A stretch of DNA of 64,000 nucleotides from an uncultured Spartobacteria bacterium (GTDB taxonomy: Bacteria; Verrucomicrobiota; Verrucomicrobiia; Chthoniobacterales; Chthoniobacteraceae): contig CAIXGS010000045.1 of NCBI GenBank assembly GCA_903919125.1, positions 1 to 64,000 of the forward strand. Direction: 5' to 3'. Under the pieces are notes generated by a model, which was given only the letters and a program-made list of their open reading frames with translations, was not told the DNA's origin and ran no database searches. Position numbers and translations under genes: made by a program. Below are positions 52,262 to 53,739 of the stretch, one piece after another. Position 1 is the stretch's first letter, and each line of letters starts with the position of its first letter.

Positions 52262-52380
52262 GAACCTCCTGCACTTAGCCACGACCGCACCTCATTTGAG
52301 GAATACGACCTTGCCAAGAGCCACTCAGTCTGAGCTTTCTAAGATTCACCAAAGGACTCACCCCACAATCCCCTAGCCTT

Positions 52381-52800
52381 ATGAACTCTCACTCATCGAA
52401 TGACCGTGACGGCGGTTTTCTCAGCGACTTATTCACGGAATCCGGCACGTCCGCCCGGCTGTTTTGGCAAGTGCTGCAAGGTCTTTTGATTCTCGTCTCG
52501 TGTGTTTCGATGCTTCTCGAAATCTACGAGCCATACCGAATTGGCTTCTCCGGCTTTATCGTCACGCTGGAACTGACCGCTATAGGATTCTTGACCATCG
52601 ACTATCTCGGGAGCCTCTACTTCGCTCCCGATCGACTTGGCTACGCAATTGGATTCTGGGGCTTGGTGGATCTTCTTTCGGTTCTTCCCTTCTATCTGCT
52701 CATGTTAAATCCCAGCTCGGCAGTAGTGATCAAGGCGCTGCGAACACTCCGATTCCTCCGATTGGTTCGGCTTTGGCGAATCGCCCGCGGTGGATTTTAA
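52381..52800 (+). CDS. Stand-alone voltage-sensor domain protein (ion-channel S1-S4, no pore)
   Basis: A 139-residue membrane protein with four predicted helices: S1 (about 27-47), S2 (about 58-80), S3 (LVDLLSVLPFYLLML, about 95-110) and S4 (KALRTLRFLRLVRLWRIAR, about 118-136). S4 has seven basic residues, each three apart, the hallmark of voltage sensors. S2 and S3 carry the usual acids (E, D, D). The frame stops three residues after S4, and no pore segment or TVGYGD filter occurs in any frame before the LysR gene 60 bp on. It is either a natural voltage-sensor-only protein or the remnant of a potassium channel. The leader is CCCCTAGCCTT before ATG. Confidence 0.7.
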   Translation: MNSHSSNDRDGGFLSDLFTESGTSARLFWQVLQGLLILVSCVSMLLEIYEPYRIGFSGFIVTLELTAIGFLTIDYLGSLYFAPDRLGYAIGFWGLVDLLSVLPFYLLMLNPSSAVVIKALRTLRFLRLVRLWRIARGGF

Positions 52801-52860: not shown

Positions 52861-53739
52861 CTACCGGGAAAGTTTTGAGTTCCGCAGGATGGCTCGAAAC
52901 ACCGTGGCGCCAGGAGATGGAGCCTGCCCTGCACGACTCAGGAGCGCTACTTGCCGTTCCAACTTTGTTCCGGCCAGAGGAAGCGCGACACACCCCGCCG
53001 TCTTGACCCGGGTAGCGAGTTTAGGAAGCAGCGCAACGCCCAAGCCCGCCGCAACCAAGGAGCGAATCGTTTCCAGCTCGCTGCTCTCGCAGGCAATACG
53101 CGGTTCAAATCCAGCTGCACGACAAGCGCTTAGAGCGACGTCTCTTGCGCGCCCCTTGTACAGGATGAATGGTTTCAGACCGAGGCTGGCAAGCTCCACG
53201 TTCCGAGTTCCAGCCAAAAACTCACCCCTTGGCGCGAGCAACACGAAAGGTTCACTGAATAAAACCTCCTCCTCAAATCCAACGCCACCCGCAGGAAGCT
53301 GTACCGCGCCGAACTCCACACGCCCGTGCTCCACCCATTGCAATACCGTCTCCGAAGTACCCTCGAAAAGAGCGAGTTCCACCAAGGGGTGCCGCTTACG
53401 AAACTCCGCGATCGCAGCAGGCAGCAGGCAAGCGCTCACCGACGGAATCGCGCCAATGCTGAGCCGTCCACCCCGAAGCCCCGCAATTTCCCGGACCGCG
53501 TTTTTCGCCGCGAGCGCCCTTTCCAGAAGCACTTCAGCATGCGAACGCAGCGTGTCTCCCGCTGCGGTTAAAACACTTTCGCGATGTCCCCGATGGAAAA
53601 GAGGCGTGCCAAGTTCGCTTTCTAATTTTCGGATCTGCTCACTTAAAGCCGTTTGCGCTAAATTCAGGCGGGCCGCAGCGCGAGTGAAGTTACGCTGGCG
53701 AGCCGCTTCCAAGAAGTATTCAAGCTGGTAGAGTTCCAT
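52861..53739 (-). CDS. LysR-family transcriptional regulator
   Basis: A 292-residue regulator. I start it at the ATG at 53737-53739 (MELYQLEYFLEAARQRNFTR); a start 7 codons upstream exists. The winged helix-turn-helix spans about 1-60 (AAARLNLAQTALSEQIRKLE), and the effector-binding domain covers the rest. It is divergent from the oxidoreductase gene, with 70 bp between start codons, the usual setting for a regulator of the neighbouring operon. Its inducer is unknown, most likely a substrate of the OYE/aldolase pair. Confidence 0.92.
   Translation of the reverse strand: MELYQLEYFLEAARQRNFTRAAARLNLAQTALSEQIRKLESELGTPLFHRGHRESVLTAAGDTLRSHAEVLLERALAAKNAVREIAGLRGGRLSIGAIPSVSACLLPAAIAEFRKRHPLVELALFEGTSETVLQWVEHGRVEFGAVQLPAGGVGFEEEVLFSEPFVLLAPRGEFLAGTRNVELASLGLKPFILYKGRARDVALSACRAAGFEPRIACESSELETIRSLVAAGLGVALLPKLATRVKTAGCVALPLAGTKLERQVALLSRAGQAPSPGATVFRAILRNSKLSR

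Follow-up and report, generated by a model that had tools for sequence, protein, structure and literature searches.

The open reading frame at positions 52381-52800 (forward strand) of the window, i.e., the 64,000-nucleotide stretch of DNA from an uncultured Spartobacteria bacterium, encodes a voltage-sensor domain, comprising S1-S4 of the Ion_trans family and nothing further. According to a 2023 review, all known prokaryotic voltage-sensing domains are accompanied by a pore domain (PMC10377628), a statement that the predicted solo family described here contradicts. In addition, our searches of the open-access literature yielded no bacterial voltage sensor that lacks a pore. The preliminary description had called bacterial examples little described, which was if anything too mild, as the review knows no prokaryotic sensor that lacks a pore.

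The gene runs from an ATG to a TAA codon and encodes 139 amino acids. The protein matches Pfam Ion_trans with an E-value of 1.6e-12 and 47.6 bits (cut-off 25 bits), and the match covers positions 3-111 of the 241-position profile, corresponding to the S1-S4 half only. All nine members of the family match Ion_trans, while other domains are matched at chance level only. Helix S1 (52465-52521, residues 29-47) contains S40 and carries E47 at its outer end, and in none of the nine orthologues is there an Asp or Glu between W29 and E47. S2 (52549-52620, about residues 57-80) contains E64 and D74, as well as L71 three residues before D74, at the place of the charge-transfer Phe, and S3 (52654-52707, about residues 92-109) contains D97. 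S4 (52720-52788, about residues 114-136; all four helices are on the forward strand) reads K118-ALR-TLR-FLR-LVR-LWR-IAR, which includes the string RLWRIAR and places seven basic residues (K118, R121, R124, R127, R130, R133 and R136) at i+3 spacing with hydrophobic residues between them. This is the sole run of seven basic residues at such spacing, uninterrupted by a stop, in the six frames of the window. The protein thus has the four helices, the S2 and S3 acids and the basic residue at every third position of S4 that define a voltage-sensor domain, and both the S4 pattern and the S2/S3 acids reported in the preliminary description were confirmed.

The predicted structure is moderate evidence and does no more than agree with the sequence. 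An AlphaFold2 model based on the nine sequences shows the expected helices with a mean pLDDT of 73 and a pTM of 0.63. The best Foldseek matches of the model are Kv4.2, Kv1.2/2.1, KCNQ2 and Kv2.1, with E-values from 1.8e-3 and none below 1e-3, and a second structure comparison gave Z scores of 11-13 at 2.7-3.7 Å against the voltage-sensor regions of CatSper, KCNQ, Kv4 and NavAb. Among solved structures, Kv4 and Kv3 channels are the nearest in sequence. Hv1 is not among the PDB or fold matches listed, an absence that carries no weight against Hv1.

The stop codon lies three residues past R136, the last S4 arginine, directly after S4 as had been described, and a convergent LysR gene ends at 52861, 60 nt past the solo gene, therefore there is no room for an encoded pore before LysR. 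A full-length Kv channel has an S5-S6 pore with a TxGYGD filter in the same chain, and a voltage-sensing phosphatase has a phosphatase domain; the 139-aa protein, which stops after S4, has neither. The flanks of each of the nine solo genes, up to 2.5 kb in both directions, were compared with the pore segments taken from 19 full-length homologues (in G011, the downstream part is limited to the approximately 120 nt of contig past the gene). The best E-values were between 0.27 and 10, which corresponds to chance, and no GYGD-like motif was present in any frame. The claim that no pore sequence precedes the LysR gene thus holds for every frame within 2.5 kb or to the contig end, and extends to all nine genomes. 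In three broken channels from the phylum, used as positive controls, the pore was detected at E-values of 7e-12 to 3e-15 with a readable TVGYGD. A split channel with a separate pore-only partner gene was also considered and is unlikely, as PF07885 is matched in the window's genome by three full-length channels only.

A search of 57 relatives identified orthologues in eight other genomes, which are Verrucomicrobiota MAGs and each a different species of the genus, with identities of 84, 66, 65, 65, 64, 62, 62 and 56%. The nine proteins are 137-139 aa long, start with ATG and end no more than one codon apart, although the stop codon at the equivalent position varies between TAA, TAG and TGA. Each of the nine genes stems from a different genome assembly, which makes an assembly error implausible as an explanation. 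The preliminary description had named a full-length channel at this locus in close relatives as the sign of truncation, and had proposed a comparison of orthologue lengths. No such channel was found: the one syntenic genome, G009, has the 139-aa gene there, and seven further species carry a gene of the same length at other loci. The solo gene was not found in G006, G008 and G010 (88, 89 and 62% complete, respectively), and no solo gene turned up beyond the genus when 40 genomes were searched for the family.

Pairwise dN/dS values of the solo gene, restricted to pairs with unsaturated synonymous sites, range from 0.06 (G003-G007) to 0.20, with 0.16 at a dS of 0.55 for G000-G009, which shows that the gene is held intact by purifying selection. 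Both D74 and D97 are invariant among the nine orthologues, and E64 is Glu in eight and Asp in one. The seven-charge pattern of S4 is conserved in part, with R130, the R4 position in the Kv alignment, kept in the window protein, G009 and G002 and replaced by Val or Leu in the other six proteins, which form one subclade in the tree. Loss of R130 therefore looks like a later event within the solo family.

The distribution of the domain was also surveyed by searching 286 genomes sampled from the class and 387 from the phylum (Verrucomicrobiota only) with a profile built on the nine proteins. Outside the genus, the profile matched within longer frames, the exceptions being G186, G591 and G100, whose open frames are under 230 aa. 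G591 (L050), G186 (L052) and, in a longer frame, G112 (L053) carry Kv genes in which a frameshift, stop or insertion interrupts the coding sequence between S4 and pore; the pore can still be read downstream. Such broken genes could pass for solo voltage sensors. In G100 the frame is short and has no clear pore. The short matches inspected elsewhere in the phylum are mainly broken channels. No match to the solo gene was found in phage, plasmid or IMG/VR collections, and a phage or plasmid origin was discarded.

As broken Kv genes do exist elsewhere in the phylum, the solo gene might be read as what is left of a truncated Kv channel, or as a Kv pseudogene. We regard this as extremely improbable and rejected it, since the gene has equal length in nine species, dN/dS values well below 1, three different stop codons at one place and no pore remnant downstream, whereas the broken channels still show a readable pore. 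The same equal lengths, dN/dS values and missing pore remnant support the stand-alone sensor, rather than a truncated channel, that the preliminary description had put forward.

The genomes with a solo gene also encode a Kv paralogue of about 350 aa with the pore sequence TTTGYGD (L027 at G000:C76), which aligns with the solo proteins without gaps from the N-terminus through S4 at 38-47% identity. The two share the charges of S1-S4, to which the Kv protein adds the S4-S5 linker, S5, pore loop and S6. When the S1-S4 region was analyzed by maximum likelihood, the solo proteins grouped in a single clade (support 91) that a long branch with support of 100 sets apart from every full-length channel; deep nodes among the full-length channels have weak support, and the tree does not fix the exact point at which the solo clade branches off. 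Both sequence and phylogeny group the solo domain with Kv voltage sensors. Fixed differences between solo proteins and channels include R26 (aromatic in channels), Q33, G34, L71, F125 and R133. At the charge-transfer site, position 71, eight of the nine solo proteins have Leu and only the G002 protein has Phe, whereas all 20 full-length homologues have Phe; similarly, position 133 is Arg in most solo proteins and Lys in 20 of 20 full-length homologues. Altogether, the solo gene most likely arose by duplication of a Kv channel with loss of S5-S6.

The Kv channel is present in every genome with a solo gene, G006 and G008 are without both, and G010, the 62% complete genome, has the channel only. 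The co-occurrence (Fisher p=0.045 over 12 related genomes, uncorrected for shared ancestry) does no more than hint at a link between the solo gene and the Kv channel. The two genes do not adjoin each other in any of the genomes examined. Separately, a second Kv paralogue group (L002, L031 at G000:C46 and homologues) is characterized by a long insert before the pore and by an HCPTCG motif that is conserved at the C-terminus and may be a metal site; in G008, two full-length genes of this group, L017 and L028, lie in tandem (G008:C5:16770-18421).

Upstream of the solo gene, a conserved element, CCTTGCCAAG-N10-TNTG, is located at 52309-52346 (forward strand), starting 72 nt before the ATG. It is found with small deviations 56-72 nt 5' of the ATG in eight of the nine solo genes (window, G009, G003, G007, G011, G005, G001 and G004). 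The element is partly palindromic and accompanies the solo gene through unrelated loci. Its strict pattern occurs exactly four times in the 12 genomes of the genus, always before a solo gene, while the backwards control pattern likewise gave four matches, at other places. With a profile of the element, the eight known sites scored E<1e-4 and no other site fell below 0.15; since these eight sites were used to build the profile, the information lies solely in the lack of additional ones. A regulon sharing the element was consequently rejected, no further copy above chance being present in the 12 genomes. No copy of the element was detected upstream of the Kv gene; it is not recognizable as a sigma-70-like promoter, and none was found. 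The gene neighborhood of the window is shared only in G009; each of the other seven genomes has neighbors of its own, unlike those in the window. With different neighbors in every genome bar the closest pair, an operon partner was dismissed as well. Since the gene keeps its own element despite unrelated neighborhoods, it looks like an independent transcription unit.

What might a domain of this kind do? We propose, with moderate confidence, that it is a dedicated stand-alone sensor derived from a Kv channel and acting through a partner, most plausibly the co-occurring Kv channel. A Kv channel would have been duplicated in the ancestor of the genus, with everything after S4 then lost and the remainder kept by selection. 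Because purifying selection has maintained the acids of S2 and S3 and most of the charges of S4, this last helix is expected to move in the cytoplasmic membrane on depolarization. Less certain than this movement itself is that it would be passed on to a partner, and any such coupling must be non-covalent, as S4 ends where the S4-S5 linker would begin. The pore or the voltage sensors of the full-length Kv channel are the most plausible recipients, in which case the solo protein would tune channel opening.

Descent from a Kv channel and co-occurrence with it would also speak for a dominant-negative or assembly-modulating fragment, which binds Kv subunits in the membrane and reduces the number of channels, voltage sensing being incidental. 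We consider this improbable, as a mere binder would have no need for the S2/S3 acids and most of the S4 charges, which purifying selection has kept, and as Kv subunits assemble mainly through the pore.

It is also conceivable, if doubtful, that the domain itself conducts, as the preliminary description had hinted for protons. It would then be a small voltage-gated H+ or cation channel of Kv origin, independent of Hv1, whose gating pore opens as S4 moves. The exchange of the bulky charge-transfer Phe for Leu in eight of the nine solo proteins and the changes of R4 (Val or Leu in six of the nine species) would be compatible with leakage through the domain as well, and there is a precedent in Kv7.2, where R4 substitutions cause cation leak currents at depolarized potentials (PMC10651576). 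The S4 motif RxWRxxR of Hv1 is likewise present in the window protein (as RLWRIAR) and in G009, but in only these two of the nine solo proteins, and it spans R4-R6 in the Kv register as opposed to R1-R3 in Hv1. Furthermore, the window protein retains all seven S4 charges, the nine solo proteins lack the acidic S1 residue that Hv1 requires for selectivity (PMC10377628), and TMEM266, although Hv1-like, does not conduct (PMC6392501). That the sensor alone forms a bacterial H+ or cation channel, Kv-derived, independent of eukaryotic Hv1 and selective without an S1 aspartate, is in our view unlikely.

As a probable offshoot of a Kv channel, the family indicates that the split between sensor and pore happened in bacteria too, with the length kept in nine species and the parent channel still present in their genomes. 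It would also offer biophysics a natural voltage sensor of very small size that has hardly any cytoplasmic tail, and allow one to ask directly whether a bare voltage sensor works as a regulator or as a channel in a bacterium.

Of the known systems, the eukaryotic Hv1/VSOP channels share with the solo protein a pore-less S1-S4 domain, acids in S2 and S3 and an arginine-rich S4. In contrast to Hv1, the solo protein has no acid inside S1, mostly no charge-transfer Phe in S2 and no C-terminal coiled coil, the chain ending 2-3 residues past the last S4 arginine in all nine cases, and phylogenetically it is a Kv domain. We take S40, aligned through Shaker, to be the position of the Hv1 selectivity aspartate D112, and the absence of an S1 acid is independent of this alignment. 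The coiled coil is not strictly defining, as it is not predicted in some unicellular Hv1 channels either (PMC10377628). By sequence, the solo protein is not an Hv1 channel. According to reviews, eubacteria and archaea have no Hv channels (PMC13095418), and prokaryotic S1-S4 segments do not contain the S4 tryptophan of Hv1 (PMC10377628). TMEM266 (C15orf27), in humans a voltage sensor without proton current (PMC6392501), resembles the solo protein in being a stand-alone sensor with neither pore nor enzyme, but is eukaryotic and related to Hv1, and it has a coiled coil as well as cytoplasmic ends that are partly structured. Ci-VSP is likewise a pore-less sensor, from which the solo protein differs in having no enzyme domain. 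A parallel to an action through a partner is found in KCNH channels, which gate with voltage when sensor and pore are separate proteins (PMC4389246), the S1-S4 part being a polypeptide of its own that ends near the S4-S5 linker, as in the solo protein. The split KCNH channels are artificial, whereas the solo protein is natural and no pore-only partner gene was found in its genome. Stand-alone voltage sensors have so far been reported only from eukaryotes, and what appears new here is one that is both bacterial and derived from a Kv channel.
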